From Adineta ricciae (lineage: Eukaryota > Rotifera > Eurotatoria > Adinetida > Adinetidae), in NCBI GenBank assembly GCA_905250025.1, contig CAJNOJ010000073.1, positions 46,174 through 110,173 of the forward strand: a stretch of 64,000 nucleotides of DNA, in the 5' to 3' direction. Shown here in pieces: positions 1-32,689 of the stretch. Each line of letters opens with the position of its first letter. Position 1 is the stretch's first letter. The position numbers were made by a program, and so were the translations under genes. The notes beneath the pieces were generated by a model. It was not told where the DNA came from, searched no databases, and saw nothing but the letters and a program-made list of their open reading frames with translations.

Positions 1-720
1 CTTGTGAATACGTTCGAATGTAAACTAGATCTAAAACGGCTTTCTTCATCTGAGTGACTATGATGACAGAAAACAATACAGTCGAATCAGTTATCATCTC
101 AGTAGATTCATCCGATGATCTAATAGCACAAGTAAGTCACATTGAATGTAGTTTCAGTTACTAACAGAATATTTTTTATAGAAAACATTCGTATAGCCAT
201 CAATCCTCAAAATGATTAACATAGCAAATAACACTGGACGTGAATTATTCAAGTTAGTTGTCTGACGATTTATTACAAAATGTTCGCGTCTTTCTTGAAC
301 CAGCAAGCAATTTGTCAACGTTAATTATTAATAATAGCTTCATGGAAACTGTAACATGTTCAAATACTCATGATACATATTCAATACTTCTACGTCAATT
401 CAAATGCTTAAAAATCAAAATCCATAACCTGAACCAAGTGAAAGAAATTTTAAAGCGTTGTAATATAACTTATTGAAAGTAAACTTCTGTATTGGAAGAA
501 TTAGAATTCATAAAATTACCAAATAGGTTAATGATAATAAGGTTATTTCATACTTCGAAGAACTACAGATCTTCATCAAACAAATTCCAACAAAACTCGT
601 TGATATATTTTAGTCTCCAAAGAGTTTTTCCAACTTTGACTCACGACAACGTACTTATGACTCATTCTTCAATTGTTTTTTTCCCTATCGGTTAAACACA
701 TCATCAACAAAAGTCTTTTC
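1..720 (+). pseudogene. F-box-like protein gene fragment (degenerate)
   Basis: No intact reading frame is present. Short coding-like stretches around 258-476 and 492-695 match, base for base with scattered changes, the 3' part of the F-box-like pseudogene at 15795-17300 (compare 1-120 with about 16715-16840, and 250-560 with about 17045-17320). The shared protein-like stretch contains DDLL-NVR-FLEPAS and LRQ-KCLK. Bdelloids carry many F-box/LRR-like genes of this kind, so this is most likely a decayed member or a duplicate of the other fragment. It lies just upstream of the ART-TPR gene on the same strand, so part of it may now serve as that gene's upstream region. Confidence 0.4.
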
Positions 721-751
721 TCATACAAAAATTTCTTTTCATGCAATCAAA

Positions 752-2974
752 ATGAAGTCAAAACATTCGAATTTTCTTGTTATTTTGTTACATTCAAATA
801 TCGATGAACAAGAAGAAAAGCTGGAATATTTAAGCAAACATCTTCAACGATATATTAATTCTATAAAAACATTCACTGATATTGATAATTGTATTGATTA
901 TGTTACTGATTTGATAGATACAAAAGTGTTTCTCATTCTTTCTGATCATGTGGTTGAACATTGTCTAACATTAATTGAGAATATTCCACAAATTTATTCA
1001 ATTTATCATCTTTCAAATCAAACCGACGAAACTCTATGTAACAATCTTATCAAAGATATGTATCAATTTCAAGAGAATTCAATTCCAATAACAATTATTC
1101 CAAATGAAAATCTTCACTCTTTAGATCCATCATTCATGTATATCGAATTACTAAAAGAAATTCTTCTTCAAATGAAATTTGATCAAAAATCGAAAGATGA
1201 ATTTGTTAATATGTGTTTAATAAAAGAAGTTGAATATGAAACAAGTCATCGGATAATTGATGAATTTGATCACAATTATAAACCTTCATTGGCTATTCAA
1301 TGGTATACTCGAGATTGTTTTATCTATCGAATGTTAAATGACTCACTCCGTTATCAAGATACAGATGTTATTTTAACAATGGGATTTTTTATTCGAGATT
1401 TACATCGACAGATTGAATTATTATATCAAGATTTCGCAAATGAAAAACCATCGATTGTTTATCGAGGTCAAGGCATGTTTAATAATCATTTTGAAAGATT
1501 ACGAGAGAATAAAGGTGGTCTTCTTTCTTTCAATCATTTTCTTTCAACAACATGTGACCAAGAGTTAGCATATGTACGTGCTTGTAGTGCACAAGATGAT
1601 TCAGAACTTACAGGTGTTTTCTTTGAAATGCATATTGATTTAAGTATACAAACAACTCCATTTGCATCATTAGATAAAGTAAGTTATTATGGAGATCGTG
1701 AAAAAGAAATTTTATTTTCAATCAATACGATATTTCGAATTCATCAAATCGAACAAATGGATGAACGATTATATAAAGTTAAATTATTCTTAACCAGTGA
1801 TAATGATCCCGAATTGAACAAACTTACTGATCATATACGTCACGAAATGATTTGCGATTCAAAATCTGGTCAATTAGCTTATTTATTAGTAAAGATGAAC
1901 AATTTAAATAAAGCTGAAGAAATTTGTCAGAAGAAAATTGAATTACCATCAGATTATACAACTATGTCTGATGATGCTCGTCTTCATAATATTATTGGAT
2001 ATATTAAAACACAGCAGAATGATTTGAACAGTGCATTAATACATTTATTTGAAGGATTAAAAAAACGGCAAGAAATTCTTCCGCCTGATCATATTGATTT
2101 AGCTGCTTCTTATAATAATATTGGTGAATTGTATCATACTATGGGGCAATTATCCAATGCACTTGATTATCATAGTAGAGCACGTTCCATATGGGAAAAA
2201 CACCTTGAATGGAACGATTCAAAATTAGCTAAATCATACAATAATCTTGGCGAAGTATACAGATCGATGGGTGAGAACGCGTCGGCATTTATGTATCATA
2301 AAAAAGCTCTTGTGATATATGAAAAAACTCTCCCGCCAACTCATCCAGATTTAGCAATGTCACATAATAATATTGGTTTAGTCTATAGAACATTGGGACA
2401 GAATTCATTAGCACTCCAACATCTTCAAAAAGCTTCCGAAATCTTGCAAAAATCTGTTCAAATCAATCATCCTTCTCTGGCTTTAATACTTAATAATATA
2501 GGTGAATTACACACGTCAATGGGTGAATATCAAAAGGCACTTACATATCATGAAAAAGCAAGAAAAATTCAAGAAAAATCTCTTGAACCTGATCATCCTG
2601 ATGTAGCTTCATCGCATAATTACATTGCTTTAGTGCATTTTGGTACAGGAAGATATTTAATTGCATTGATGCATTTCAGCAAAGCTATGAATATATATTA
2701 CAAATCTCTTCCATCGACTCATCCGGATTTCATTGAAATACACATGAGTATGGGTCTCTTGTATTACTTTATCAAACGACATTCGCTTTCGTTATTGCAT
2801 TTTCAAAAAGCGTTGCAAATATCGAGAATTTCTCTTCCCACGAACCATCAATATCGCGCTATTATTCCACAAGTTATTACAACGATTCAAAGAGATTTTA
2901 TTAAATTCTCATTGAGTAACAATTTTAGTTTTATAAATCGTAATTGTATCGTAATCGAAGATGAGTTAGACTAA
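752..2974 (+). CDS. ADP-ribosyltransferase with N-terminal Rossmann-like domain and kinesin-light-chain-type TPRs
   Basis: Intron-free ORF of 740 residues starting at an ATG. Residues about 6-90 form an alternating strand/helix domain (FLVILLHS, then KVFLILSD) that recurs in the other ARTs here. Residues about 125-350 are an R-S-E class ART domain: R238 in VYRGQ, S265 in FLSTT, and E317-x-E319 in REKEILFS. The E-x-E form is typical of arginine-specific mono-ADP-ribosyltransferases (family knowledge). From about residue 370 to 720 there are roughly eight TPRs with the 42-residue kinesin-light-chain spacing (repeated NNIGELY/YNNLGEVY plus ALxYHxKA). All key residues are present, so it is probably an active cytosolic NAD-dependent modifier whose TPRs bind a partner. 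The substrate is unknown. The closest relative in the window is the truncated gene at 11425-12679. Confidence 0.9.
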   Translation: MKSKHSNFLVILLHSNIDEQEEKLEYLSKHLQRYINSIKTFTDIDNCIDYVTDLIDTKVFLILSDHVVEHCLTLIENIPQIYSIYHLSNQTDETLCNNLIKDMYQFQENSIPITIIPNENLHSLDPSFMYIELLKEILLQMKFDQKSKDEFVNMCLIKEVEYETSHRIIDEFDHNYKPSLAIQWYTRDCFIYRMLNDSLRYQDTDVILTMGFFIRDLHRQIELLYQDFANEKPSIVYRGQGMFNNHFERLRENKGGLLSFNHFLSTTCDQELAYVRACSAQDDSELTGVFFEMHIDLSIQTTPFASLDKVSYYGDREKEILFSINTIFRIHQIEQMDERLYKVKLFLTSDNDPELNKLTDHIRHEMICDSKSGQLAYLLVKMNNLNKAEEICQKKIELPSDYTTMSDDARLHNIIGYIKTQQNDLNSALIHLFEGLKKRQEILPPDHIDLAASYNNIGELYHTMGQLSNALDYHSRARSIWEKHLEWNDSKLAKSYNNLGEVYRSMGENASAFMYHKKALVIYEKTLPPTHPDLAMSHNNIGLVYRTLGQNSLALQHLQKASEILQKSVQINHPSLALILNNIGELHTSMGEYQKALTYHEKARKIQEKSLEPDHPDVASSHNYIALVHFGTGRYLIALMHFSKAMNIYYKSLPSTHPDFIEIHMSMGLLYYFIKRHSLSLLHFQKALQISRISLPTNHQYRAIIPQVITTIQRDFIKFSLSNNFSFINRNCIVIEDELD

Positions 2975-3781
2975 ATTTTATTTTAGAAGAAAAAGAAAAT
3001 AATTATAGTGTTTTTATTTTGCTCGTCTGTCAACATAGGTGAGAGTAATTATGTATTTTCGTAATAAAAGAGATTGTCACGATCAAGCGAAAACATGTTG
3101 ATATATTTTCCGACAAGATGGGAAAATCCCACGACGGTATATTATCTATATCCATCAACATATTTTAATTCGAGTGTTAATTAAACCTTGAGCGATACAA
3201 CAAGAACACAAGATTACTGATAAGTACCTTAGTCGGGATCGATTTGATGTGTATTAGAAGGAACTGGAAATGATTCTTGTGGTTGTTCGTCTGGCAAGGT
3301 TGCATACGCACGCAGCTCTTGAAGGTGTGAAACATCAAATAGAACTTGAGGAAGAAAAACATGATCGAGAAGATCGTGAGAAAAGGTTTACGTCATATTT
3401 GTGCTGAATCTATGCTGCGAGAAGCTGTCTACAACGATAAAAAATGTGTTGCAATTTCAGTATCTGCAAAATTGTATGGTTTTGGATACTGATCAGAAGA
3501 AAATCTTATGAACAAAAACTAACGACATTAGTTTGTTTACAAGTCAATAACATCTTAGAAACGAAAAGAAAAATAAATATTCCTTCCTAATTTAATTAGC
3601 GAAATCTCTTATGGGAAATCTCCCACATATCAGAATAAACACTTTATCGTCTTAATTAACTAATCTTACGTTCGCAATATCCCTCGATATACTTTTCACT
3701 ATATAGATAATAAGCGAAAGATAGTATTTAAAACAGCAGAATATCCCTGAGTCTGCGTTAGAATCTTTATATTGAAAGATA
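2975..3781. other. intergenic, no convincing gene
   Basis: AT-rich spacer. The only open frames are short, lack convincing start contexts and have no recognisable motif. A stretch near 3270-3410 reads as a charged helical peptide in one plus frame but is closed by stops on both sides. The last 60 bases hold a TATTTAAAA-like box, probably the promoter of the next gene. Confidence 0.4.
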
Positions 3782-4246
3782 ATGTTCGTGTATCGGATAT
3801 TCTGTTGTTTTCTCATTGTCTTTCTATCGGCTTATTTGATAGGTCAGGTAGAAAGTGGCGATAATAGTCGAAGCAATATTCGTCCAATACAATCACTTAC
3901 ATTTCCTGGATCGGATCGACAACAACAATCAAGACCGGGAAATTCATTATATCCAGCACTTAGACCCATAATACCATGACCATCATATACGAAGACGATT
4001 TCGTCGTATCCACTCAACCAACCAGCACCATGGACACACGATTTAGTTCCTCCAAACCCATCATTTCAACGATCTCAATCACTTACACCCATACTACCAA
4101 AACCACCAACCGGTGACACAGGTTATACATCTTCATTCGGTCAACCGCTTCAATGGTCAGCATTCACCATCTTGAGGGTGGGTGTGGATGAAGCAGAGCT
4201 CGTCAGTCAGCGAGGAAGTGTATCAAAGCTGTACCTATACTCTTGA
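3782..4246 (+). pseudogene. small secreted Pro/Ser-rich protein with one in-frame TGA
   Basis: The ATG opens a clear signal peptide (about residues 1-25, hydrophobic IFCCFLIVFLSAYLIG), followed by a Pro/Gln/Ser-rich chain with an IQSLTFPG motif. The frame meets TGA at 3977-3979, then continues without another stop to TGA at 4244-4246. The continuation has the same composition and a matching SQSLTPILP motif, so the two halves belong to one 154-codon frame. A single nonsense change is the simplest explanation. No GT-AG intron that removes the stop is obvious. A TATTTAAAA-like box lies about 55 bases upstream of the ATG. The family is not recognised; extracellular export is likely. Confidence 0.45.
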
Positions 4247-5108
4247 ACTGTTCTCCCACACGATCTTATATTCCGTAATTTTTACTTTTCTATACGTTGA
4301 AATTCGATAATTACTGTTTTTGACATTGTGCTTCGATACCTACTATTTTCGATAATTCCAGATTCAAGGTTGATTTTTTATGGCAATTCTTCAGATACGA
4401 TTTCAATAGACGAGATCGTTCTTATTGATTTTGATCTCGTCAATCCTATATTTGAAGTGCGATGAGTATCGTTATTTTCTTTTTATGTCAAAATATTTCT
4501 TCTCCTTTTTAATTCATTCTTCCATACAATGTTTTTTCTGTAAAGATTCTTTTTTTAAGCAGCTATATGTTTCCTGTGGTGCTATTGGTTTCTTTTTCTT
4601 TCACGTAGAAAGTATTGGGCGATACAAAGAATTGCCCTTATCGATATAATTGCACATGATATAAAATTCAACTGAAAAAGTTATTTAGTTTTTGATTCTT
4701 CTTCTGTAACTGTACACATTCTTACAGAGATTATTAACTGAAAACAAATATATGGGTGAGCTTGGCCAATTGGCTTACAGTTGTTTCGTATGTCTCCATG
4801 CGGTCATGCACGGCATAAGAGTAACTTTAGAGAAAAGCGTTTTCTCATTGAATTGAATAGTTTTTTCTAGTCTATAGGTGATTGTATTCGGCGTATCTTT
4901 TCTGGAACGATTATAGTAGTTGGTTAGAAACTACTGAAAATAATGTCGATGGAAACAATTACACTAGCATAAGCAAATTTGTCATTGATTAATATAAAAA
5001 ATAAGTCCTTTCTTATATGAGCTCTTACGTGAAACTGTGGAAACAATTTCTGTGTTGTACTTCAAATATTTTACAGAAAAAAAAGGATACTTTTAACTTC
5101 AATGTAGT
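4247..5108. other. intergenic, no gene seen
   Basis: AT-rich sequence with many T-runs and no frame of convincing composition. It lies between the 3' ends of a plus-strand and a minus-strand gene. Confidence 0.4.
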
Positions 5109-6466
5109 CTATTGTTGAGAAAGATGTTTACCATAGCGATCATAATCGCGATCATCAAGTTTCAGATGAAGACCAGCATCATAATCATCGTATGCAAAAT
5201 CATCAAAATCAAGATGAGCTTGACGCTGATCATCGTCAGCAAGAAGACGATAAATAGGACGATGAATATCATTAAACATACCACAAAATTCACCAGAGCT
5301 TGCTTCAAGAGCCAGTTTAGTTTCTAAATGCTTCTTATCTTTGACTACAAACAAAGGAAAAGAATATTTCGTTTTCACATTTGTTCGAAAGATATTCACT
5401 CACTCGACCAACTCTGTTGGAGTTCCACATAAATCAAATGTTGATTCTTCTTGTAATCAAAGTCAACACGTACGACACGAAAACAAACGCCTGGCATAAT
5501 AAGTTCTTCTTCTTCTTCAGGATACTCAGATAAATCGCTCAAATCAGCGATAAAAGCGTACTTCACTTGTATGATAAACAATGTATTTCCAAATGCTTCT
5601 GCTTTTGCTCGATTTCGAGTGCAAGATGAAAATCCTTGAAATGAACCATATTTATCATTGCGTGCAGCCATTCCTTTATATATCTCGATCTGTTCACTTT
5701 CTAGATTAGCTCCTCGATACAATTCAATGTTCGCTTTCATCCTTTTATTGCACGGATCATCCCACAATAATAAAGAAAACGGACCTAGTGTTGGAATTTT
5801 GCTTCTCCAGATTTCTTCATCTTCTTGGCTTCCCACCAATCGCATAGCCGCATTCAAAGTCTTATAGAGAAAACTTTCCAATGAGTAAAGATATGCACAA
5901 CGCTTCCAAACTTCTACACGTCCACTGTTCTTCTTCTCGGAAAGTAAATTAACCAGTTTTTCAGCTTCTCTTTGTTTACCGATACGTTCACCTTCTGCAA
6001 TGATGCCATGGGCCGCTTTTTCGACTAACATAGGTATTGTTTGTGGTTTTCTCGAAGGAAGTTGATAATCCTCTAGATCCAAATCTTTTCTCACTTCAAT
6101 AATAAAAGGTGAGACGAATCCATATTGGCCGCCAAAGAAACCAGTCGAAGGAACTGGAAGATCCATAAATCGTGCTTCTCTCACGTGTTTATCTTTTCTG
6201 TTGCCCACTACTCGTTTCACAGGTCTTTGATCTTGATTGTCACTATTGGATACTTGAATTTCGTTATCAAAATCGATAAAGCAGCTATCTAAGATAGCTC
6301 GTTGTTGCTTATTGGAAAATGCCTCTTCGATAATTAGATTCTCGACATCTGAATAATGGTTCCATGTTGTTGGTTCATCTGTTGACGATGAATTTGGTTT
6401 CAATTGCCACATCCATTCCACAGTTTTCGATATATCTGTAGCTTCAGCCATTATACAGTTTACCAT
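5109..6466 (-). CDS. WWE-domain ADP-ribosyltransferase with acidic C-terminal tail (two exons)
   Basis: Exon 1 is 6466-5404 and exon 2 is 5344-5109, joined by a 59-base intron (donor GTGAGT, acceptor TTTGTTTGTAG); the splice keeps frame and gives 432 residues. Residues about 15-87 form a WWE domain: WMWQLK at the start, TTWNHYSD in the middle, RPVKRV at the end. WWE domains bind ADP-ribose-derived ligands in PARPs and some E3 ligases. Residues about 185-350 are an R-S-E ART domain: R251 in LYRGA, S280 in GFSSC, and an EEEEELIMPG turn giving E-x-E. The spliced tail (about 77 residues) is rich in Asp/Tyr (DFDDFAYDDYD). Without splicing, exon 1 would end three residues past the donor, so the tail is easily missed. 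A second Met (residue 6) is an alternative start. Likely an ADP-ribose-guided mono-ART; target unknown. Confidence 0.85.
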
Positions 6467-6646
6467 TTATCCCTAGTTTTGATATATAAAAGTAATCTAA
6501 CACGCACAGAATTTATATAAGAAGCTGAGTCGGATTTCTCCATACTGCTTGTGAAAGAAGGATAAATACCATATTGTTTCAAACATATCAAGATGTATTT
6601 TTCCCTTTCTTTCTCATTCGTGACGTAATTATTTTTTGTTCGAAAG

Positions 6647-9600
6647 CTTAATCTCTTCTCGCAATTGATAAGAGAGAAAACAAAACGTATATTATAGCGA
6701 GGAATTTTCCATACACATCATGTATTTGTTCGTTTACATGTGCAGCTATTTAGCTAGGAACAGAGATGAAAAAAATATCATCTTCTTTTCTCATTTAAAT
6801 AAAAGAATATGCAAACTCTAACAGAAAATATTCTTGATCGACTACTCTCGAGATATCAATTAAATGGTGCGTAAAACATTGTCTCATTGTAGAATAATTA
6901 GAAAAAACTCATTTCCACATTCAAGATAATATGCCAGGCGTTTGTTTATTTCTTTTGTTTCGGACACGTCGCTTACTGAGTAAAACAAATCAATCATACT
7001 TAGTAGAACAGTTTACTGGTTTTGTCAGCAAATAAATAATCAGAGTTTGTCTATACTAGACGCAAATGGTTATGATGATGGACAGACGAAACAAGAAATA
7101 TTCTACATGACGTGTCCATAATCTTGAACTGTAACTATTTCATCTTCAACAGAGAGATTTTTTTACAGAACTATATGTACGGTGAAATACTATCATGTCG
7201 ATGTTCAACAATTACGACTCCTTACAATATTTTCGTTATGAATCTTGTCTGCTTTCATCTAATATATAGAACGAGTATATTTATTGTAGGAGATTTTCGA
7301 AAGACAGTAAAATCTCAGTTTCATAATTATTCCTTACCATAGGTGTAAACACGATCCTGTTTTATTAGTTTGAACTCCTGTTAGCTCTATCTTCAGGATG
7401 TGGGGCCCACGCACAATTCTTTGACTCTATTATGACAAAGTTACATTCGTTGAGACAACTAAACGAATATATTGGTAAGCTTACAAAACACTTGAATTTA
7501 GAGAATGATACTGTTTAGGGAAAACTCTACTGACCATAATGTTGTATATAAATGAAGAAGATTGCTACCCTAGCTCAACGATATAACTTCAACTGAAGAT
7601 TTATTCTTTTTCTTCATAGACATCAAGGCATTTTGTGGGAATGAATAAATTGATCATACTATCTTTGAAGTCAACTTGAGCAATATGAGTAAATTTTTTA
7701 GCTAATATTTCGAAAAAAGGGAGAAGACCTAATTTATTCAACAATAAAAGATCGAAACGAATATCAAAATGAACACTATCGAAAACAAGAAAAGAATTTA
7801 AGCTCTATAATGGATACAAGTGAGCTCCCAGAGTCGTTCGACTCTACATCCGTGTTGGAGTTTGAAACTAGATTCAAATTGACGTTGTAGCCTTCATCTT
7901 TTGTGGTCGGTTAACCAATTATTTATAGATTTTTTTCTCTTATGCCACTCTGTTCATTCAGTTCTTGGGTAGTCAAATTTTATTTGAGTATGGTAATCGC
8001 TTTTTTATTGTTGGTTTGTTGATCTCAACTACTGGGAACTAGTAAAGGGCCGACCATGGGAAGAAAACAGTTTGATTTTCTCCCATAAGGTGGTGATGTC
8101 GAGCTTTGATTTTTGTCAGGATAGTATCGTGGTCGACGAATCTATGTCGATTGAGTTAAATGTAGAACTTTTGATGCTAGCGGACATAAATCAGGAACGG
8201 TGATAGTGATGCCAGTGGGGCGACACCACTTATTTTCAACAACATTGACGATATTTGACTGACTATCTCACGGAAGTCGATATCAACACTGGAGGTTCAA
8301 CCAACATGCTCTACAAATAAAACAAAATAATCATTATTTTTTCAAATGCTATTCACTCACTGTCACACCCCTCGTGCTTTATCAGTTCGTGTTCCTTGAG
8401 TACAAGTATTCATGCTAATGCTACGGTCGCTTCTTGTTGGATACATTTGTAGCTAGTTGGATTGTAAGAGATGATTGTATTTGTGTTAAGAGAGAAATAT
8501 GCTAAGTAGGAAAAGAATCATAGACGAAGGCCGTGACGTGCATACGCCTTATGTAGGATGTCGAACAATGCCACAACTTTCTTCCCAGAACCTTTGTGGG
8601 TCTTAATGATACTATGTTTAATGTTGCCACAGATTAAAATTCGACGATGCTTGCTACATGGATAAAAGTCAAAGATAGATAAAACAGAGCCTAGGGAATA
8701 TTGAGAACACTGGTGAAATACAAGGAAAATAAATACAATAAAACTATATGCGTATAAATCTAAGAATAGAAGATAAAATAGTCTGTCGTGTTGTTTTCTT
8801 GAAGCAGTGCTAACAAAACTCACTGGTGGTCTATTTGTTACGAAAAAATCCGTCATATGTATCGAGTGTGGGCTCAGAGACGAAATGACTGAAGAATGGA
8901 CGAATGATATTTACTGCCAAAAAATCATCACGGTTTCAAAAAGAAAGATGACAACACAAAATGATGATTACATGATGTCATGAGAAGATGCTGTGCAGAG
9001 AACAGAAAACATATGTGAGCACATGCGAAAAAAAATGTGAAGAATGCGAGAGAACGAGATGCCTGGTGCTAATAGAGGATGATTTATATACATCATCCTT
9101 TTACAGAGTGAATGAACAATAATACTCAATATACAAATGATGCATTGCATGTATAAACCGGAAGGACAGGAAATTGACTGACTGTATGCATGACGATGTA
9201 CTTAGCATCTAGAATTACATTCATTGTTTATTTATATGTATTTTCCATCCAACTGTTCATCGATTCATAGGAAGTCAAGTGAATGTAAGTGTTCACCTAA
9301 TACGACGTCGCCTGCATTGAACGCATTTTGAACGGTCTAGCTAGTGTTTACTATGCAGAGGTCTTACTTTATTCGACAAAATCTTCCAAAGCAGCCATGT
9401 CCTCAATGTTGACGACTATCTGTGTTATACTAAGGTAGAAACCGTTGAAGAAATCTTGAAAATGATGCACTACCGTTTCGAACATGCACAAAACTAGCTA
9501 AGAAGTCGAAACATCATCGTGGAGTAAAACTTTTAATTTGATATTTCTATAGCACATTAAATTGCTCATTGAAATTGAATGGCAGTACTCGGATGTATCT

Positions 9601-9706
9601 AGCATTCTTTAAAAAAAGTTTTTGAAACGATTACCTTCAATTTATTCACGGAAGAGAGAATAAAAGCACAATCTTTAAACTCCACTTTCTCTTTGATTTA
9701 TTTTTG
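6647..9706. other. duplicated region without a confident gene
   Basis: No intact gene seen. Some minus-strand stretches look like exon remains (for example about 7830-7605 and 8856-8518). Comparison with the second copy shows that a large share of the base changes alter the amino acid, and some shift the frame, which argues against present protein-coding function. Confidence 0.4.
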
Positions 9707-11210
9707 TTAATCGACACAAAAAATAAATAAGCAAGCACTGGTACCGATGCACAAAGCAATAGCGATCAGTGAGTATTGTGTTATGAGTAATCCGAATGCA
9801 AATTTGTAGAGATTTTCTTGACAGTAGTTCTCTGGGATTCGCTTATCATATTGAACACTTGGTCTCACGCCAAATACCCACACGCTTCCCTAGAGAAGAA
9901 AACATACATATTATTCAACTGATCGAAACGCTTTGGTTATTCTTCTTTCTGTACCGCGATTAACCACGAGAAGTAGAAGAATGCTAATAAACATACAAAA
10001 CAATTCGTAATACACCCTCCGATATGACTATCTTCGCCACAGCACTTGAATGAAATAAGCAACTATAAACAAGACATGAGTGTACGAAATATATGCTAAT
10101 TAACACCTACGATAGTGAATGCGGTACCAAAAACACCTATACCCACAGCTCCGAAAACAGTCATCCACTGTGGAATCCATGATTGAATAGGACAGTCAGA
10201 TTTATAAATTTGACCAACGACCAGAGCAGCTATAGGTAGGAGTGTTGCTACCAAAATCATGACCAGGACAGATACTTGTTTCGTTGACATTGCATCTCTT
10301 TCGATGGAATATTCGTCTGTCGAATCTATACTCATTGAAATAGGCGACACAGTGCCCGAAAGTTTTTTCAGTGGATCTCTTGGGATTGTATTTGATATAG
10401 TTGGTATGCCTATGTAAAACAGAGACTAAAAATAACTGCTATTGACTGACAAGAAAATAATTGTGTTGTGTTTTCGCAGTTACGCGTACTGTTATAATGA
10501 GTGGCTGACGATGATGATGGTAGCGACGTCAGATTACTAGTATCATTCTCGTCGCATTTCTTTATCTGTAACAGTAAGCCATAAATGACAACAGATGACC
10601 GATGTTGCGTTTTCCACTCTAATTCTTCATTCGGAATGTGCGTGCATATTCTTTGCATTCGCACTTGCGCACCAACTGTCTCCGGTTGTACGATAATTGA
10701 GTCGGGCTTTTGTCTACATTGCAATACTACTTTTATAGTATAGAGTCTTGAATCATGAGGCGATCTGAAATGATACGCACGAGCGTAAGCTTGATGTGCC
10801 GCATAAGTAATTGATGGCGTTGTAAAAATGTAATTCTCTTTCGGAATATGACCTTTTGGTATTTCTAACTTTTTGCCATACATGGTAATATCGTTGGGCA
10901 ACAGCAATTGTCGATGTTCGACGCAGGATCTAGCGCTTTCAATACTAGTTCCATGGTAACAAATCAACCACGTACTCCATACATTGTGAAGCTCGCAGAT
11001 GTCACTGTCCACCGAAACAGCAAAACGAGTCCATCCATGCGGAATAACATATTTGTAACCAGCGACGGTGAGAGCGTCGGGATGACTTGATGGATAGCAT
11101 TGATAACAATAACATCGATCGTGAGCCGGCTTACGCAATTGAGAAGGCCACGCAACACTCTCTAAAAACTCTCGTCCAATACGAAATTTTTCACACTCAC
11201 TCGTTGCCAT
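9707..11210 (-). CDS. PARP-like (H-Y-E) domain fused to TMEM272-like four-helix membrane domain
   Basis: Four exons: 11210-10484, 10409-10111, 10062-9955, 9889-9707, giving 438 residues. The true start is the ATG at 11210 (MATSEC); a longer frame upstream begins only with TTG and has no counterpart in the paralogs. Residues about 45-215 resemble a PARP-type catalytic fold: H86 in CYHGTS, Y136 in PSITYAA, E198 in ELEWKT, then IYGLLLQI. A Cys-rich HDRCYCYQCYP stretch precedes it and could hold a metal. After a low-complexity linker come four hydrophobic helices with DCPIQSWIPQW, FYFSWLIA, GSVWVFG and YCQENLYKFAFG, the layout of TMEM272-like proteins. The catalytic part is expected on the cytosolic side (inference). 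Five more copies lie in the window, all with the same exon plan. Confidence 0.8.
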
Positions 11211-11423
11211 TTGCACAACAGAGGAAAGAATGATTGCAATGGCAAGATCTATAGTCACGAAATCACACAAAAAGAAAAGAGAACACTATTCTTCCACTCC
11301 GGTCAAATTGTTTATATGAAGAGAGTAGTTTACAGAAATCAGCGTCGTAAAATGTGAGTTTTACGTATGTACGAAACTTCGAAAATCATAGATGAAAGAA
11401 AAATCGTCATGGCTTCTCTTCAA

Positions 11424-11424
11424 N
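11424..11424. other. single undetermined base (assembly join)
   Basis: A lone N where context changes abruptly. To the left is duplicated block A, whose second copy continues past the matching base (37589) with different sequence. To the right is the interior of an ART-TPR gene that is cut at its TPR region. Confidence 0.7.
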
Positions 11425-12679
11425 CATTGCAAACGTTTTCGGCATCATTATATTTACCCATACGAATGAGTAGATAAACGAGCGATTTGTCGATTGAACC
11501 AATGCGAATTTGTTCGCGCATGTAGTCAGTTACTTGTTTTAAAACTGGATCATTGTCATCAGTTAATGTCAGATTCACTTGCCAAGACTTTGCGGACTTC
11601 TGAATGATTTCATCAATATGAAAAATCGTATGCATGGAAAACAAAATTTCTTCTTCATCTTTATGTTGACTTAGATTGTGAATATCTGCAAATGGTATTG
11701 ACGATATCGCCGGATCGATTTCGATGTGAAAAGATATTCCAACTGAGTCATCCGGCAAATACGAACTATCTGCATATGGCAATAAAACCTCGTTGTTTTT
11801 ACTGGTTGACAAGAAATTATTGAAAGACAAGAGACCGCTCTTGTTTTTCTGCAACTTTTCGAAATCATCTACGCGCATAAGTTGACCACGATAGACCCTC
11901 AGCTTTCTCCCAAATTGTTGCTCCTTATGTAATTTACCGATTTCACGATGAAGTTCTTGAATGTAGACGCCCATATGAACAATAGTGTCGGTGTCTTGTG
12001 TTCGAAGAGCTTTATTAACTCGATCGTAGAAGAGCACCGCTTTTGTGTACCACCATATCGATGATAGAGGAGGTTCATTTCGTTCGTAGACATCTAAGTC
12101 TTTTAATCTTGAAGGTTGATTAGCATCTTGTTGTCGAAGGTAGTTTATAAAGTCTTTTTTCGCTCCGTCATCGTATTCCTTGCTTAATAGAATATCTTTC
12201 AATAGTTGCGAGTACATGAATGACGCATCGAGTATTCTCTGATGGTCGTTTGTTAACGAGTACGCAAAGTTGACCGAAGCGAAATCGTGTTCAGATTTTC
12301 GAAGGTTTGTTTTGAATTGGTTGCAAAAATCGGCTATATCAGTGAAAGATCCTTTGAATTTTGTCCATCGATTCATTTTCAATCCTTCATTACTTCCGTT
12401 TTCACTTTTAATAAATATCGATTGAATTTGAGGTATGTCATGAATCAATGGTAAAAGAGATTCCACATTGTGTGCACATAAAGCAAGACAAATTTGTTCT
12501 TCAGAGACGTCGGACACAAAGTCGATGCATTGATCAATACAATGGAATATTTTTATATCCTTGACCAAATCGAATAAGGAATTTAACGATATTTCCGTCG
12601 TTGTTTGCGATCCATTCGTGTTCGGGTTCCAGCATATTATAATACATTTTTTCAAAATGTTAGATCTTTCGAATTCCAT
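11425..12679 (-). CDS. ADP-ribosyltransferase (Rossmann-like/ART/TPR type), 3' end missing at N
   Basis: The ATG at 12679 opens 418 residues that run into the N at 11424. Domain order matches the gene at 752-2974: an N-terminal strand/helix domain (residues about 10-92, KKCIIICWN to IQSIFI), then an R-S-E ART domain (R264 in RVYRGQ, S291 in FLSTS, E342-x-E344 in DEEEILFS), then the linker LTDDNDPVLKQVTDYMREQ and the first TPR-like helix pair (SLVYLLIRMGKYNDAENVCN). The remaining TPRs would lie beyond the N and are absent. No stop or frameshift is seen, so truncation is probably by the assembly join rather than decay. Confidence 0.85.
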
Positions 12680-12998
12680 GTTCTTATTTTAGAACATCAA
12701 AACTGCGGCGCGCGCTGTATATGTCACTGGGAAAAAATGAAAGCTGAAGGCACATTTTTATAGTGTCAGAATAGACAAAAGAATATACACATGATGGAGA
12801 CTGATAAGACAGTCAATCTTGGTTTTAGAAAAAAAGAGAATAAATCGAATTACACATAACAGAGATATAAGACACGCCACTGTCCGTCGACGTGTATGGA
12901 AGAAAGTTACGAACAGCTGTCGACTTATTTATTTACACGAAGCAACGTGATGTATACTTTTATTACGATTGTAATGGTATAACAAAGATTATTTTACT
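12680..12998. other. short intergenic spacer
   Basis: 319 bases between the start of the truncated ART gene and the 3' end of the S9 peptidase, both on the minus strand. No coding frame is seen; it should contain the ART promoter. Confidence 0.4.
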
Positions 12999-14969
12999 TC
13001 AACTGGTAGTTTTTGCGTTGTTTTCTTCAAGTACTCTGTGAGTCCAGCATAGCATTTTTGCGATATGTAAAATCAGCTGTTCCGAAGCATTGAGTGCATG
13101 TCCACCACCAAACCATTCAATTTCTAACTTTTTATTGAGCTGACGCATCTTATCCTCGAAGCATTTCATTTGACGTGCAGGACATCGTGTATCATTAGCT
13201 CCTTGAATAATCAGTACAGGCGCACTGATCTGTTCGACGTACGTGATGGGAGATGCGGCTGCGTATAATTCCGGCTTTTCAGCTGGTGTACCGCCAAATA
13301 AGGATACTTCGTAAGTTTTCAGCGATTCAGCCGAATCTTCATAGAGCATGGTCCAATCGGCAATAGCAATACCTGCTAATCCACCCGCCCACAGACTCGG
13401 TTATTTATCTAAAGTCAACAAAGTCAGATACCCACCATACGACCAACCTGTTAGAAATATAGTGTTGGGTTGAGCAATACCCTGTTCAACAAGCCAAGTA
13501 CGTGCAGCGACAATATCTTCTACTTCCCAATGGCCAATGTCAGAATAAATCTTATGTTCAAATTCACGTCCAAAAGTTATCGAGCCACGATAATTAATTG
13601 ATAGATATGCAAAGCCGTGATCGACCCATGCTTCACTTACTGGATCGAACTTTTCACTTGTAACAGATGCAGGACCGCCGTGTACGTCAATAATTGTTGC
13701 AAATGGTCCATCAGCATGCATACTAGGCAAGGTAAGTCGACCTTGTATAAGTTGTTTATCCGACGATGAAAATGTCACTGAATGTTGTGAGCGAGTTATC
13801 AAGTTTTCAATTTTCGGTGGTCCGAGCATAACTTTCTCAAATGCTCCATTGTTAGCATTCAATGCAACTATTCGTCGAGGTGTATGTGCATTTTCCCACT
13901 GAACCAGAATCGTTCCATCAGGGCCGAATCGTGCATCATGAATCATGCCGGATGGCTGTTCTATCAGTGCATTTATAGTGTTGTCAACAATAGAATAACA
14001 GTACAGTCGAAAAACAGCATTATGAATTTGTAATAAAAGAATGAAATTCCCATCTTCCGACCAATCGAGTGGATCAATATCTCCTTCGATGCCGAACTCA
14101 TCAAGTATAAAATCGATTTGTTCGTTAGTCCGTACGTTCCAAATCAATGGTCGATTCGCTCCGGTACGGTTGCTTTTCGCTAAAAGACGTATATCGTTCG
14201 GTGATGGAGCGAATTGTTTTGGTACCACATTAACTCCGTGCCCGTAATCGAGCGTGCTAATCAAACGTCTATTATTACTAATGTCAAAGACGACCAGTAT
14301 ACTTCCTATACCCTTTTTAACATCGGTAGTTTCTATGACCACAAGATCTCCGTTATACGATAAAATCGGATTAATTGTCAAATTTGCCGTTTCGTAGATC
14401 AAATTCGGTTCACCAATAGAATCCATTGTTACACATTGTGTAAATAGTTGACAACCCTTTTCATGATCAGTAGTTAGATACGCTACTGTTTTGCCAATAC
14501 CATCCGTGTGAAATCCTAACGACGAGTAGGGTTCTCTTTCAGGTGTTAAGTCTACTTCTTTACCACTCTCCACATCGATGCGAGTATAGTGACCAGTTTC
14601 ATTACCTTTCGTGTCGTTCAGATAATAAACAAAACGACCGTCACAGGATATAAATCCGTCCCTTTTACCCTCCGAATGATTTGTTAACTGACGCAGTTGC
14701 CCATTCGATACAGTCCATGAATATAATTGATAAATACCCGATTGATTGCTTATCACTAAACCACGTTGATGATTACACTTTGCTAAGTATCCTCCATATT
14801 GATGCATACGGAATCTTTGTTTCCACATCGCATTGTCGTCGGTTAGAAGTGCACTATTCATATCTAAATAAAACGAACGTACGTATTGCACATGTGCATG
14901 TACCGCGAGTGATAAAGAAGGGAGCACTGGTATATAAAACGACTCGTGCGTATCGTATTTTATGCTCAT
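12999..14969 (-). pseudogene. S9 family serine peptidase (prolyl oligopeptidase/acylaminoacyl-peptidase-like) with one in-frame TAA
   Basis: One frame of 657 codons from the ATG at 14969, interrupted only by TAA at 13403-13401, between LLTLDK and PSLWAGG. The sequence on both sides is in the same frame and conserved in character, so a single C-to-T (CAA to TAA) change is the simplest cause. The N-terminal part (about residues 40-390) has beta-propeller-like repeats. The C-terminal part is an alpha/beta hydrolase with nucleophile S510 in GWSYGG, Asp593 in GANDTRCP and His624 in GGGHAL. The stop falls after the nucleophile but before Asp and His, so the short product cannot be active. There are no introns, unlike the animal genes nearby, and the arrangement resembles bacterial S9 enzymes, so horizontal origin is plausible. 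Stop readthrough or a sequencing error are alternatives. Confidence 0.8.
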
Positions 14970-15794
14970 ATGATACCTATATATTTAATTTTTTTGTACT
15001 GCAATGGTCATAAGGAGAAAAAAAGCAGTGTCATTTAGTTTCGTGTCCGATTGTCGTGTTTGCCATCCTCGTTATCTTCTTCGTTCTTCAGATTTGAAAC
15101 ACAAGCGAAGATCTTCTCTCTTATTTTCGTTCGAAGCATGAGGGTATAAAACATGGTGTGTCGATATTTGTTATGTACATTGCATTGATTATACGAAAGA
15201 AGATTATTGAACTCTCAATTGCTCGATCACTAAATATTAAAACCAAAAGTGAGGTGACATATGGTATCCAAACTGCAGATATTGACCACTTGCTTATTAA
15301 CGACGTATATAATCGTCCGAGCAATTTTTGTGAAAAAAAACAACTAATTATGATGCTTCATAATCAATTATTTTCCTCATTTTATATTTTCGGATAACAG
15401 TTTGATGAAAATAAATTTTATCCAGCCAGTGTCTTATTATGCACGAAACTAAATAGAAATTCATAACATAAAGAGATCCTAGTCGACCATTACAATCGAG
15501 AAATTCCACTAAAACTCCCTATAAACGATAGCTCTAATTCCCTCTGCATATTCGATCCGGAAAAAAACATGCTACTATGAAAATGTGACGATTAGGACAT
15601 GTATTGCTTATTCACATATACATTTTTGTAACTAACAGTGGCTTCTTCTTATATTGATGAAAGTTATTTTTCGAATTTCTTTGCTTTTATTCTCTCAAAC
15701 AGTGTTTATACTTATTCATCCATTTGTGTATTCATCTGTTGAAAATAAAAACTGTTTTCCAACTGATATTCATCTCTTTACATACTTTAACCAT
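14970..15794. other. intergenic, no gene seen
   Basis: AT-rich spacer between two divergent loci, holding the upstream region of the S9 gene. Short open frames on both strands overlap each other and show no motif. Confidence 0.35.
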
Positions 15795-17420
15795 ATGGAA
15801 GCGTTACCTGTCGAAGTAGTTCATCGCATTTTTGACGATCTTGATACGCAAACGATTGTATTCTCAATACGATGTCTATCTCGATCCTTTTGATTAATAG
15901 TTAATTCTTATGAACGATGGATTTTCAAGTTCAAGGGATTGTTTCAAAAAGATTTCCATCTTCTCTATCGGTTGATCAAAGAAGGAAATATTATTTCATT
16001 GACATTTTCAACTGAATTCAATAACTCGGAGGACATTGCTCCATTGTTTTTCCATATTTTCATGCTCAACAATTTACTCGACTTCGATCTTTAACTCTGG
16101 AGAATATTGATCAAATGAATTTGAAATTTTTTATAAAACATCTTAATCGTACTGTTTTACTCATCTCATTTTCCGCAATCGTCAGAGAATACGATGAATT
16201 AAGCCGATGGTTTCCGACATCAGGAGACTTGTGGGTACTTTCATGTTTACCCAATCAACACTTCGACATTTCAATATTCTTCTCATTTACACATGGCTGT
16301 TCTTAAAAATCGCTTTGATCTACCGAGTCAGTAAATATTTCCATTCTAATCCTCTGATATTCCTGCTTTTCATCAATTACAATTTCTGATTATTGAAAAG
16401 AATTCTCAGGACATCGATGTAATTGAATAGTTTCTTTCCTTAACACCTTCATTGAAGTATTTGAAAATTATTGCTCGACGAATAGATCGTCTGCCTGTGG
16501 CAATAGTTTATTAAATCAAAATGAACACAATTAAAGAAACTCAAATTCCATCTTGATTACGATTCGTTCTTTCAAAGGAAATCATTCGAAAAACTCGAAT
16601 TAATTAATTCTTCATTTCAAACAGCATTCCAGACGGAACATAAGCAATGGTTTGTCACTTGTGAATATAATACGAGAAAGCTGTACTCATCCTGTTATAT
16701 TCTCTGTACTTTATCAATATGTGTGAATACGTTCGAATGTAAATTAAATCTAAAACGGCTTTCTCCATCTGTGGTGACTATGATGACAGAAAACGATACA
16801 GTTGAATAGGTTATTATCTCTGTAGATTCATCTGATGATCTAAACGCATAAGTAAGTCATATGTAACGTAGTTTGAATTACAGACTATTTTTTATAAGAA
16901 ACATTCTTAAATTATCTTCGTTTTACCAAAGCCATTCATCTTAAAATACATTCACCGCAGTACTATAACTGCTTCGTGTGGTCATCAATTCTCAAGATGT
17001 TTAACATAGCAAATATCGTACAAATAACACTGCCCGTGAATTATTCAAATCAATTGTCTGATGATTTATTAGAAAATGTCCGCATCTTTCTTGAACCAGC
17101 AAGCACTCTGTTACTGTTAATTATTAATAATAGCTTTATGGAAAATGTAACATGTTCAAGTACTCATAATATATATTCAATACTTCTACGTCAATTAAAA
17201 TGCTTAAAAAATCAAAATTCATAGCTTAGACCAAGTGAAAGAAATTTTAAAGCGTTGTAATATAACTTAATTGACAAAATTACCAAATAGGTTAATGATA
17301 ATAAGGTTATTTCATACTTCAGAGAGCTACAGATCTTCATCAGAAAAATTCCGAGATCTATTGCAGAAAAGATTATGATTTTGTTTTCACAAAATAAATT
17401 CCAACAAAACTCGTTGATAT
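15795..17420 (+). pseudogene. F-box-like protein pseudogene
   Basis: An ATG at 15795 starts a recognisable F-box (MEALPVEVVHRIFDDLDTQT), but the frame stops at 15891. Further homologous-looking stretches follow in several frames with many stops (for example ERWIFKFKGLFQKDF just downstream, and 16976-17224 with DDLLENVRIFLEPAS). The 3' part from about 16715 to 17420 duplicates the beginning of the window (1 to about 620). Functional family members would recruit targets to SCF ubiquitin ligases; this copy cannot make a full protein. Confidence 0.55.
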
Positions 17421-17577: not shown

Positions 17578-17613
17578 TTCGCCTATTTAAAATAATTGTG
17601 TGAATGTCATTAG

Positions 17614-18144
17614 GTTCATCATGCCCAATACATTCTCCCGCAAGGCCGAACAAAATGGTGGAATCCAAGTGAAAATGCTGAGAAAGAAGAGGAAGACGAG
17701 GACGAGGACGAAGAAGAAATGAAAGCCGAAACAGAAGAAATCGAACCCGAACAAGGTCCACCACTTCTAACACCCATTGGTGCTGATGCTGAAATTGAAA
17801 GCATAAAAGCATGGACGGCCAAAATCTCTTCAAGTCTTATTCCACAGTATGCATGTGCATTCCTTCGATCGAATCTTTGGCCCGGCGCGTATGCATTCTC
17901 TCGTGGAATGGCTTGGGAAAATATCTACGTTGGTTATGGACACAAATACGTAACAACCGACTATGGACCGGAATTGCCACCATTGCCAGCTAATGAATAT
18001 AATGATGGACCAGAAATTGTTGAAGCCGATGATCCATTGCCAGAAGATGAAGCGAAAGCAAAGGCAGCCGAAGAACAAAAAGCTGAAGAAGAAGAGGAGG
18101 AGGAAGAGGAAGAAGAAGGAAATGGTGATGACGAAGACGATTAA
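17614..18144 (+). CDS. RSPH4A/RSPH6A: radial spoke head protein 4/6 homolog, last exon only
   Basis: The last exon begins after a 3' splice site (GAATGTCATTAG) at 17614 and runs 177 codons to TAA at 18144. It reads through [13 protein letters not shown], an acidic stretch, and the family's diagnostic C-terminal block: [39 protein letters not shown] and [12 protein letters not shown], ending in a poly-Glu tail. RSPH4A/6A form the radial spoke head of motile cilia, expected in an animal with a ciliated corona. All earlier exons are missing to the left of the N at 17577, so this is an incomplete gene in this assembly rather than a proven pseudogene. Confidence 0.9.
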
Positions 18145-18482
18145 CTAATTTTTTAAAACATAGTTCATACTGTTCCCTTTCTTTTTCACTATATAAATAA
18201 GTTTATTATTGATGTATTCGAATGTTGTGTTTTCGAAAAATGAACTCTCACAGATTTATAAATGTATCTGAAATACGCTGTCAAACTCGATTTACCTGGA
18301 TCGAATACAGTTGGATAGATGGCGCTAGGCATATTATTCGAATTTGTTATTTGTTATTTATATATTCCAATCAATAGTATTTCTAAAAACTATTTATATT
18401 TTCTCGATCGTTTCGCAGCCATAAGATCACAAGGGGGATTTTTCAACATTCAAATGACCTAATTTAACTGATGCTCTTGTAG
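18145..18482. other. short intergenic spacer
   Basis: 338 bases between two plus-strand genes. No frame of interest is seen; it should hold the upstream gene's polyadenylation region and the ACAT promoter. Confidence 0.4.
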
Positions 18483-20261
<1,779 letters not shown>

Positions 20262-20372
20262 AACTTCGAACCCGATTTTTCTCTCATTTGTTTTGAATAA
20301 AGATTTTTTCCACAGAAACCGAATAAATCAATAGATTATATTTATATATTTCTTCTTTTCTTTTCTTGATTG

Positions 20373-20933
20373 ATGTCGACTGTTCGAGTTCGTTGTCTGT
20401 TACAACAATGTACCAAAGCAACGCTACGTTTGCAAGATGATTCTGTAGTTACGGTAAGTCAGTTGGAATGACATTGAAGTGCTATTCTCAACATTCATAT
20501 TGAAGATCAATCGTGGCATGGTTGTCTTTGTCGCTTTTATCAAAGACGCTCAACTAGACGACGTGGATAAACTAGGTAGGATGATCGTACGAAATACTTA
20601 AAACTCAATTTTAAAAATTTAGCGAAAGAAATTGCAACTGTGAAACTATGCGAAAGTGAGAATGGTGGACTGAAAACAATTGTCGATTTACCTGGGGATC
20701 TTTTGATTATTCCACAAGCAACATTAGGTGGTCGGCTCAATTCACACCGGTTTCAATATCATCATAATATAAACAAAGACACAGGACAGGAATTCTACGA
20801 TCGATTTGTATCAAATATGCGTGATTTGTGTAGTCAAAACAGCAATAACGTTGTTCATGCCGGATCATACGGAATCCGACAGATATACTCGAGCGAAACG
20901 AATGGACCCGCAATGCATATAATCGAATTCTAA
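20373..20933 (+). CDS. DTD2: D-aminoacyl-tRNA deacylase 2
   Basis: Three exons (20373-20453, 20506-20575, 20623-20933) give 153 residues. Motifs fit DTD2 (animal tRNA deacylase) better than DTD1: VDLPGDLLIIPQATLGG, a GSYGIRQ stretch near the C terminus, and the ending TNGPAMHIIEF, where the Gly-Pro pair belongs to the chirality-sensing site of the DTD fold. DTD2 removes mischarged amino acids from tRNA (L-Ala from tRNA-Thr in animals, by family knowledge). It follows ACAT1 by about 110 bases on the same strand and ends only 47 bases before the TOP3A start codon, so the genes are tightly packed. Confidence 0.88.
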
Positions 20934-20980
20934 TAATAATAAAGAAATCTTTTCTTCTCTCTTTATTTGTAGATGAGTGA

Positions 20981-23900
20981 ATGAGAATAACTTCGATTCT
21001 ATTGAAAGTAGTCATGCATCGAGTGCTCAATGTTGCTGAAAAGAATGATGCAGCTAAATCCTTAGCTCGTCTTCTTTCCAAAAATTCGGCATCAATGGTA
21101 AAGACCAGTCTACAATGCTACTGTGCTCACACTTCTATTGTTTTTTAGCGTGAGGGTTTTTCAAAATTTAATAAAATTTATGAATTTAATTATCAGCTAT
21201 TCAACCAGCCGGTGCAAATGACTTTTACATCTGTATCCGGTCATATCATGAATTGTGATTTTACTTCAGCCCATAACAGTTGGTAGGATACCTTTTCATC
21301 GTTTTAATTCACGATTTGAACAACTTGCTAGGGCACAAGTGGATCCCGTTGTACTATTCGATGCTCCTATTCAGAAGAAAGTTACCGACCGTGCTACAGA
21401 TATTGAAAAAACGTTGAAACGGGAAGTAGCTAGATGTCAAACTTTAATCATATGGACCGATTGTGATCGTGAAGGAGAAAATATTGGATATGAAATTATC
21501 GATCTATGTCAAGCAGTCAAACCTGGTATAAAAGTTTATCGAGCGCGCTTTTCAGAAATTACTTACAGCAGTGCAGCTCGAGCGCTATCGAATTTAATTC
21601 AACCGGATAGACGTATCAGTGCTGCTGTTGACGTTCGTCAAGAACTAGATTTACGTATTGGTGCAGCATTTACACGCTTTCAAACCTTACGTTTGCAACG
21701 TTTATTTGGCTTCGATTCTAAGCAAGTGATCAGTTATGGTTCATGTCAATTCCCAACCTTAGGTTTTATTGTTGAACGCTATCTCCAACGCGAGAATTTT
21801 ATTCGAGAACCATTTTGGAAAATTGCTGTCGAGCATCAAACAGAAAGTGGCGAATTTTGCGAATTTACATGGGAACGCGTTCGTTTATTCGAACATCAAC
21901 CGTGCTTAATGATCTATGATATGATTATGGATGAACCATTAGCCAAAGTAATGGATATTAAATCGAAGAATAAATCCAAGTGGCGACCTGCTGCACTTGA
22001 TACAGTGGTATGTACGATGCCAATGAAACAATAGGTTTCAGTTTCTATGCGCTTAGGAAATGGAAAAATTAGCAAGTCGAAAATTACGTATGACGGGTAA
22101 GAAGACAATGGAAGTGGCGGAGAAATTGTATATGAAGGGTTTAATCAGTTATCCACGTACGGAAACGAACATCTTTCCCAATGAGATTAATCTTAATCCA
22201 TTGATTCAAAATCAAGTCGGTGATCAACGTTGGGGCGCTTTTGCTCAACGTGTACTTAACGATGGACCGCATCCAAGAAATGGAAAGAACTCTGATAAAG
22301 CCCATCCACCGATCCATCCAACACGTTATCCTGATGGCCAATTAACGGTAAGTGCAGGCTTAGTTGAACTTGACTAACTTATTTTCGAATGATTTTGGAT
22401 TTTAGGAAGATGAGAATAAATTATACGAACTAGTTGTTCGACATTTTCTGGCTTGTGTTTCGAAAGATGCTCAAGGCGACGAAACAACGATCAAAATCGA
22501 AATTGCCAACGAGAAAGTAGGTTTCGATAACTGCTTGTCAAGAAAAACTAGCATTTATAATTTAGTTCAATGCATCTGGCTTGATTATTCGCGAGAAAAA
22601 CTATCTCGAGGTATATATTTATGACAAATGGTCTGAGAAAGTAAGACGACACAAATTCACACTTTGTTTGTTCGATATAGAGAAAATTCCTTTTCATTAG
22701 TCGTTGCCACTCTATGATTTAAATCAAACATTTTATCCGACGAAAATTGAAATGGTCCAAGGCGAAACAACACCGCCGCAATTGCTAACCGAGGCAGATT
22801 TAATTGCTTTGATGGAAAAACATGGCATAGGTAATTATTAGCTGCGATAATTGCCATTTGAATGTTCGAACAAATCCATATAGGTACTGATGCAACACAT
22901 GCAGAGCATATTGCTAAAATTCAAGAACGTGTGTATACAAAAATGAATTCCGAGCGAAGATTCGAACCGGAAAAGTTAGGGCTTGGCCTATGCGAAGGTT
23001 ACGACAAGATGGGTCATGCATTGTCAAAACCTTTTCTTCGTGCAGAACTTGAAAGTCAACTGAAAGCGTATGTTGTTTAGCATAGTTTTCCGGTGAAATT
23101 GCTCTTCTCTTTCTAGAATATGTGAGGGAACAGCGCAACCGGCAGGTAAAAGAGATTTTGTTTTGTTACAGTTGAATGAAAAAACATTTTCTTCGACTTT
23201 TGTAGCGGTACTTCGAGAACAGATCGATAAATATCGACAAGTCTTCATTGTCACTGCAGCACAAATTCAAAAACTTGATGATGCAATGACGAAATACTTT
23301 GGCGCACCAGGACAAAACCCTCCACCTCCTCCTCCGCCACCTCGTCCACCCTCCTCTGGTCCATTTGGTGATCGCACTAATCGAAACCAACCACCAAATG
23401 GAAGAGCCAATGCACCACAAAACCGGTAATCACCGAAAGTAGAATATCCATCGTTTTCTACTACTCTGCAATTACACTCTAGACAACCGCAAGCTTCACG
23501 TGTCCCTAACAATAATAACAATCCTCCATTCAGGTATGTTCTATCTTATTTGAATTTCTTCTCGGCATTGCGCGAAATCTAGACCACAACAGCAACAACA
23601 ACCTACCCGTCCTGCTAGGTAAACCATTGGATTGGAATATTCGTGTTTTTATTTTATTCATCCAGACCATTGCAACAAGAACAAATACGTCCGACGAATA
23701 GTAGTGGAATACCAAAATGTAATTGTAATACTGATGCTAAAGAATTGACCGTGAAGAAAGGTAGCTTTACTATCGCCAAATGACTTTTTTCTGCAATGAA
23801 GATTTTCTTTATTTTTAGATGGTCCCAACAGAGGCCGGTCTTTTTTCCGTTGTGGTAACAACGATAATTGTAATTTTTTTGCTTGGAAAGATGAGTAAGA

Positions 23901-24200
23901 CAATCCTGTGATTATGTTAGATAATATCTATGCCTATTTTTAATTTGAGATCAACAACAACAGCAACAACAACATTTCAAACCGGTGGTAATACTTATCG
24001 ACAAGGTGGAAATCACCAATCTACTTCATCTCGTAAACGGCGAAGTTCAGATAATGACGAAGATGGAAAACAACGAAAATGCGGTCTCTGCAAAGAGACA
24101 GGTAAAGACGCATATATTCGACAAGCTACTTAATCTTGCGTATTTTTATTTTAAAGGTCATACACGCCGGAATTGTCCATCACTGAATTCTTTTCTATAA
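20981..24200 (+). CDS. TOP3A: DNA topoisomerase III alpha (type IA)
   Basis: Sixteen exons sum to 806 residues: 20981-21097, 21149-21282, 21332-22007, 22057-22347, 22406-22516, 22566-22640, 22701-22830, 22884-23067, 23117-23145, 23206-23425, 23483-23533, 23583-23618, 23666-23760, 23819-23894, 23950-24101, 24157-24200. The TOPRIM part has [13 protein letters not shown] and DCDREGE; the active Tyr is in [28 protein letters not shown] follows. The C terminus has a poly-Pro segment, Gln/Asn-rich mini-exons, a GRF zinc finger (CNCN to RSFFRCG) and a CCHC knuckle ([15 protein letters not shown]). The enzyme unlinks DNA single strands and dissolves double Holliday junctions with BLM/RMI partners. 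Two in-frame Mets (20981 and 21014) could give mitochondrial and nuclear forms, as in human TOP3A. No damage seen. Confidence 0.94.
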
Positions 24201-28700: not shown

Positions 28701-28702
28701 TA

Positions 28703-32673: not shown

Positions 32674-32689
32674 CCTGGCTACGCCACTA
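32674..32689 (-). repeat. hAT 3' terminal inverted repeat
   Basis: CCTGGCTACGCCACTA, the exact reverse complement of the 5' terminal repeat at 28906-28921. Confidence 0.85.

Follow-up and report, generated by a model that had tools for sequence, protein, structure and literature searches.

A gene joining a putative ADP-ribosyltransferase domain to four hydrophobic segments in the bdelloid rotifer Adineta ricciae

Six gene copies in one region of the Adineta ricciae genome encode proteins in which a soluble domain with the residues H, Y and E is followed by a linker and four hydrophobic segments. We propose, with a probability of about 0.45, that the product is a divergent NEURL4-type ADP-ribosyltransferase (ART) that faces the cytosol, is joined through a flexible linker to a TMEM272-like four-helix anchor and mono-ADP-ribosylates proteins at or near the membrane, on a plan like that of PARP16.

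Results

Gene model and splicing

In the window, that is, the whole stretch of 64,000 nucleotides that was analysed, the first copy of the gene lies at 9707-11210 on the minus strand, comprises four exons and encodes a protein of 436 aa that ends in a TAA stop codon, with three GT-AG introns of 80, 48 and 65 nt in phases 1-0-0. Exon 1 (10490-11210) encodes the soluble domain with the motifs HGT (H86), Y136 and ELEW (E198), in addition to an H-x2-C-x-C-x2-C motif (H30, C33, C35, C38). Exon 2 (10111-10409) encodes the linker and the hydrophobic segments 1 and 2 with a DCP-Q-WIP loop between them, exon 3 (9955-10062) a loop and hydrophobic segment 3, and exon 4 (9707-9889) the GSVW-F signature, a loop with an invariant YC, hydrophobic segment 4 and the stop. 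The layout of the protein thus runs from the soluble domain through the linker to the four hydrophobic segments.

The same four-exon model with phases 1-0-0 fits all six copies, which encode 425-438 aa and have introns of 47-174 nt. Copies 2 to 6 are likewise on the minus strand, at 35873-37376, 39757-41231, 45388-46940, 49426-50900 and 55098-56650, respectively, the first number of each being the 3' end of the gene. The first-pass annotation had linked the domain to four membrane helices by splice reconstruction and had given all copies the phases 1-0-0, and both statements hold: exon coordinates could be set exactly, the frame is open and four hydrophobic clusters are found in every copy.

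A polyadenylation-type AATAAA starts 4 nt past the stop in copies 1 and 2, while neither AATAAA nor ATTAAA occurs within 400 nt in copies 3 and 5. A transcript consisting of exon 1 only was considered but seems unlikely, as both hexamers are absent from intron 1 in all six copies. Intron 1 of copies 4 and 6 (46068-46240 and 55777-55950, minus strand) measures 173 and 174 nt, against 53-80 nt in the others, and contains no stop in the frame of exon 1 for roughly 50 codons; because the frame stays open, retention of this intron would yield a soluble form with an extra tail. A candidate seventh, decayed copy of the membrane half at 7465-7692 (tblastn E 0.029) was rejected, having in-frame stops, 27% identity and many gaps.

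Paired blocks and the number of genes

The six copies form three pairs (copies 1 and 2, 3 and 5, 4 and 6) that lie in DNA blocks 93-97% identical to each other. The block at 6647-11423, which holds copy 1, matches 32690-37589, which holds copy 2, in two pieces of 93.0% and 96.5% identity, and copies 3 and 4 lie in a block (38800-48467) whose counterpart, 48469-58176 with copies 5 and 6, aligns to it in three pieces (96.9%, 95.2% and 93.6%). The exon 1 proteins of copies 1 and 2 are 98% identical. Partner copies align without a gap in all 12 exon pairs, and in only two of the nine partner intron pairs, both between copies 4 and 6, does intron length differ, by a single base.

The window contains three N, each of them single, at 11424, 17577 and 48468. 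Two of these apparent scaffold joins coincide with block edges: the N at 11424 ends the block holding copy 1, the sequence to its left being that found at 37589, where the other copy runs on differently, and to the right of the N at 48468 the block 48469-58176 begins with sequence that opens as at 38800. Copies 2, 3 and 4 are held by the stretch 17578-48467 between two N, and their partners are placed with copy 1 closing one stretch and copies 5 and 6 opening another. Because the block edges fall on single-N joins and copies 1, 5 and 6 partner copies 2, 3 and 4 in order, the simplest reading is that the six copies may represent three tandem genes on two haplotypes, assembled separately and then strung into one scaffold. 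Divergence within pairs is 3-7%, close to the median of 4.55% given for the top non-self hits of Adineta ricciae in the accessible part of a comparison that also lists 1.42% for A. vaga and about 22% for two Rotaria (PMC5916493). True duplication may instead have produced the six copies: against the haplotype reading stand the matches stopping at 6647 and 32690, inside contigs, the lack of any detected match between 1-6646 and 17578-32689, and the approximately 1.2 kb (37590-38799) without a partner. As the copies form three pairs, perhaps haplotypes, they count as three independent witnesses rather than six. The six copies reported earlier do share one gene model, but their independence was overstated.

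Two further features were noted along these stretches. A repeat of 80-85% identity links 3-588, near the left end of the window, with 16722-17352, near the N at 17577, and remains of a hAT transposase occupy 29716-32475 on the plus strand (PF05699 in 31684-32475), just ahead of the duplicated block that starts at 32690.

Selection on the two halves

Purifying selection acts on both halves of the protein in all three lineages, as would be expected if they form one fused protein. In 12 between-lineage comparisons among the three lineages by NG86, dN/dS ratios, which are rough because dS is often above 1, in the saturated range, ranged from 0.035 to 0.270 for residues 1-215 (11 comparisons, one undefined), from 0.191 to 0.322 for the helices (all 12) and from 0.158 to 0.704 for the linker (11, one undefined); the linker ratios 0.158 and 0.304, two of 11, overlap the helix range. 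Since both domains show ratios below 0.33 between lineages, the fused protein looks maintained. Of the earlier annotation, the fusion and the phases common to all six copies are borne out by the gene models, and the maintenance of the fusion by these low ratios. Trees of the two halves give the same three pairs, which is no strong test with three lineages. Within the pairs, whose members differ by few changes, ratios for the linker (0.117, 0.162 and 0.222) are no higher than for the helices (0.301, 0.285 and 0.432), and we counted this against the preferred explanation.

Motifs and searches with the first domain

The residues H, Y and E, after which the H-Y-E clade is named according to the available text of PMC3482391, occur in order in all six copies with constant spacing (H-Y 50, Y-E 62). 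The first motif is HGT throughout, and the third is ELE in four copies and VLE in the other two (copies 3 and 5). Over half of the columns in the exon 1 alignment are invariant across the copies, and for this reason the invariance of the three residues carries little weight. Also invariant in the six copies is the H-x2-C-x-C-x2-C motif at residues 30-38 of copy 1 (about 11097-11123), which could bind a metal.

Profile and structure searches gave no family for this domain. Exon 1 matched no Pfam family, PF00644 included, whether copy 1 was scanned at E<=1 or copies 2, 3 and 4 at E<=10, sequence searches of the PDB gave chance matches of which none was credible, and neither PADLOC nor NCBIfam matched the first domain of copies 1, 3 and 4. 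PHROG matches of copies 3 and 4 were weak, at best E 0.043, and their families have no known function. AlphaFold models from exon 1 with all six copies (mean pLDDT 35.2) and from a trimmed core (28.9) were both unusable, and a PDB fold search with the former listed mainly kinases, with a best E of 0.30 and none at E<=0.001, and was given no weight. Comparison by hhalign with the neighbouring PARP-like and ART proteins, based on very shallow profiles, gave probabilities of 1.4% and 0.07%, the alignment at 1.4% having an E of 0.038 over 36 columns at the C-terminal end. Relatives of the first domain were absent from bacterial and archaeal genomes, viral contigs, phages and plasmids, and those of the helices from viral contigs; the only plasmid match (E 5, 12% of the query) lay in a transporter. 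These collections are not animal genomes, and their negatives therefore tell nothing about animals.

The first-pass annotation described the domain as PARP-like. Of the evidence behind this label, the residues H, Y and E stand in six of six copies, whereas PF00644 has no match in exon 1 of copies 1-4; the label rests on motifs, from which we infer an enzyme. Among the literature searched, the closest documented motif set, and the one that best fits, appears to be that of the divergent NEURL4 ART, for which the accessible part of PMC7955679 gives HGS, LLS and ELE in the human protein and which goes undetected by Pfam. Judged by these motifs, the first domain is probably a NEURL4-type ART, if only by a modest lean; that it catalyses is the less likely of the two statements. 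Pfam detected no Neuralized repeats in exon 1 of copies 1-4, nor in the membrane half of copy 1 or copy 4. A very similar domain presumably occurs in a wide family of invertebrate proteins. A probe sequence set down after the window had been seen shares 37% identity with the first domain, the HGT, Y and ELEW of the two falling in register, which is a lead only; the same probe found no real relative in viral contigs or in bacterial and archaeal genomes.

Membrane half and topology

All six copies have four hydrophobic clusters (Kyte-Doolittle, 19 residues, cut-off 1.6, overlapping windows grouped by eye), with one Cys in the loop after segment 1 (DCP or ECP) and one after segment 3 (YC). The four helices, the DCP-Q-WIP-type loop, the W-IAG-VW segment and the YC are features that we take to resemble TMEM272. 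For the membrane half, Pfam gave nothing above cut-off in copies 1 and 4, and the PDB no match for copy 1.

An N-glycosylation sequon is present in the loop between segments 3 and 4 in four of six copies, and none precedes residue 222 in any copy. Given these positions and one Cys per presumed outer loop, a protein with its N-terminus inside would fit. The charges of the loops depart from the usual positive-inside pattern and argue against this topology: K/R number 3-4 in the loop presumed to be outside, after segment 3, and 1-3 in the one presumed to be inside, between segments 2 and 3, and the 20 residues that lead into segment 1 hold 2 K/R against 5 D/E in copies 1 and 2. As judged by eye, no hydrophobic stretch follows the annotated start in copies 1, 2, 3 and 5. 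In copies 4 and 6, an in-frame ATG lies upstream, and the short hydrophobic stretch behind it might serve as a signal peptide; in copies 1 and 2 an in-frame hydrophobic stretch is present upstream but has no ATG, and the region upstream of copies 3 and 5 is without such a stretch. With the loop charges and the upstream ATG of copies 4 and 6 opposed to it, a cytosolic domain with both ends inside is a preference and not a result.

Neighbouring genes

The gene copies are located in a cluster of ADP-ribosyltransferase and WWE genes (PF01129, PF03496 and PF02825). Four ADP-ribosyltransferase ORFs are above Pfam cut-offs, all on the minus strand: 5396-6466, with a WWE domain, 11420-12688, 42106-42933 (partner 51646-52371) and 43130-44230 (partner 52778-53920). 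A further WWE domain is found at 63591-63998 on the plus strand. This setting lends modest circumstantial support to reading the fusion gene as an ART gene.

An ORF at 38229-39542 on the plus strand, adjoining copy 3, has segments that look hydrophobic by eye and, behind them, a PARP-like domain that stays below the Pfam cut-off (PF00644, E=0.015), and its partner frame at 48276-49211 (+), joined across the N at 48468, adjoins copy 5. It is like the fusion gene in having hydrophobic segments and a PARP-like domain in one protein but differs in the reverse domain order, the opposite strand and a different ART subtype; we presume a likeness to Gig2 proteins. Elsewhere in the window, a prolyl-oligopeptidase frame at 12999-14984 on the minus strand (PF00326) contains a single in-frame stop, at 13401-13403, after which the same frame resumes.

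Discussion

Under the reading that we prefer, the N-terminal NEURL4-type ART domain would face the cytosol. A flexible linker, some 45-75 residues long, would connect it to a TMEM272-like four-helix anchor, which would hold the protein in the membrane and have its two ends on the inner side. The ART domain would bind NAD+ from the cytosol and mono-ADP-ribosylate proteins located at this membrane or close to it, a plan that PARP16 shows to be workable in animals. Within this scheme, the ART fold, the catalysis and the topology are what we infer.

Other explanations differ mainly in what they make of the first domain. It may have no ART fold and represent a lineage-specific cysteine-containing domain in which HGT, Y and E match by chance, as the missing profile and structure matches, the shortness of the motifs and the high proportion of invariant columns in exon 1 would allow; the order of the motifs and the ELE nevertheless agree with the NEURL4 row in the part of PMC7955679 at hand, and the in-register alignment of the probe, as a lead, points the same way, so that we consider such a domain unlikely. 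If the fold is that of an ART, the domain could still be a pseudoenzyme, binding NAD+ or ADP-ribose and regulating the membrane part, for instance in the role of a sensor. The NEURL4 row lists activity as 'not determined' (PMC7955679, in part), LRRC9 and TASOR possibly lack activity according to the accessible text of PMC10450202, and the purifying selection on the helices suggests that the anchor may do more than anchor. Three diverged lineages have nevertheless all retained H, Y and E, and NEURL4 itself may be active, because its loss nearly abolishes mitochondrial PAR synthesis in the account excerpted from PMC9149570; an inactive domain thus seems improbable to us.

The remaining explanation retains the enzyme but turns it around, with the domain translocated so as to act extracellularly or in the lumen, in the manner of the vertebrate ARTCs. 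It would make use of the upstream ATG and hydrophobic stretch of copies 4 and 6, which are one of the three genes, and would agree with the in-frame hydrophobic sequence upstream of copies 1 and 2, despite its lack of an ATG, and with loop charges that do not favour an inside N-terminus. As copies 3 and 5 have no upstream hydrophobic stretch, and no sequon precedes residue 222 in any of the six copies while four copies carry one in the loop after segment 3, an ecto-enzyme appears very improbable.

Physiological context is offered by PARP responses in a bdelloid. In Adineta vaga, 17 PARP genes are over-expressed 2.5 h after radiation and nine after rehydration (PMC10809525), and in spaceflight ADP-ribosylation is enriched among under-expressed genes (PMC12220480); the accessible portions of the two papers make no mention of the fusion gene. 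If active, the protein would represent a further membrane-anchored design besides PARP16 in intracellular ADP-ribosylation and a compact object for the study of the poorly understood NEURL4-type domain.

Beyond the single gene, the copies might define an unrecorded class of membrane-embedded NEURL4-type ARTs, with an ART and a TMEM272-like tetraspan working as a unit that predates the split into three tandem paralogues and has been kept inside a cluster of other ART genes, a proposal that we make tentatively and with the odds somewhat against it. No description of a fusion between an ART and four helices was found among the matches listed in the open-access literature, as far as their accessible text goes, although unannotated database entries may exist, and titles and abstract openings of the listed TMEM272 literature contain no such fusion. 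The earlier statement that no described enzyme has this layout is accordingly not contradicted in the open-access literature seen in part, but the general plan of an ART with a C-terminal anchor was already known from PARP16.

Comparison with known systems

TMEM272 itself is a stand-alone protein, whereas here the helices follow an enzyme-like domain. The ART of NEURL4, which is PARP-related but arguably outside the PARP family in the excerpted PMC10450202, is compared here by its published motifs, as far as the accessible text gives them: the two have in common an HG[S/T] first motif, an E in an ELE-type third motif and the lack of detection by Pfam, and they differ in the middle position, which is L in NEURL4 and Y in all six copies, and in the membrane anchoring of the protein described here. 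The closest parallel in overall plan is PARP16/ARTD15, which has a cytosolic N-terminal catalytic domain and a C-terminal membrane anchor and was in 2012 the sole known ARTD with a C-terminal transmembrane domain, according to the available part of PMC3372510. The order of an N-terminal ART-like domain and a C-terminal membrane anchor is repeated in all six copies. PARP16 is tail-anchored and has a PF00644 domain (PMC7955679, accessible part), whereas the rotifer protein has four hydrophobic segments and a domain unmatched by PF00644. Relative to PARP16, both the ART subtype and the anchoring by four helices would be new.
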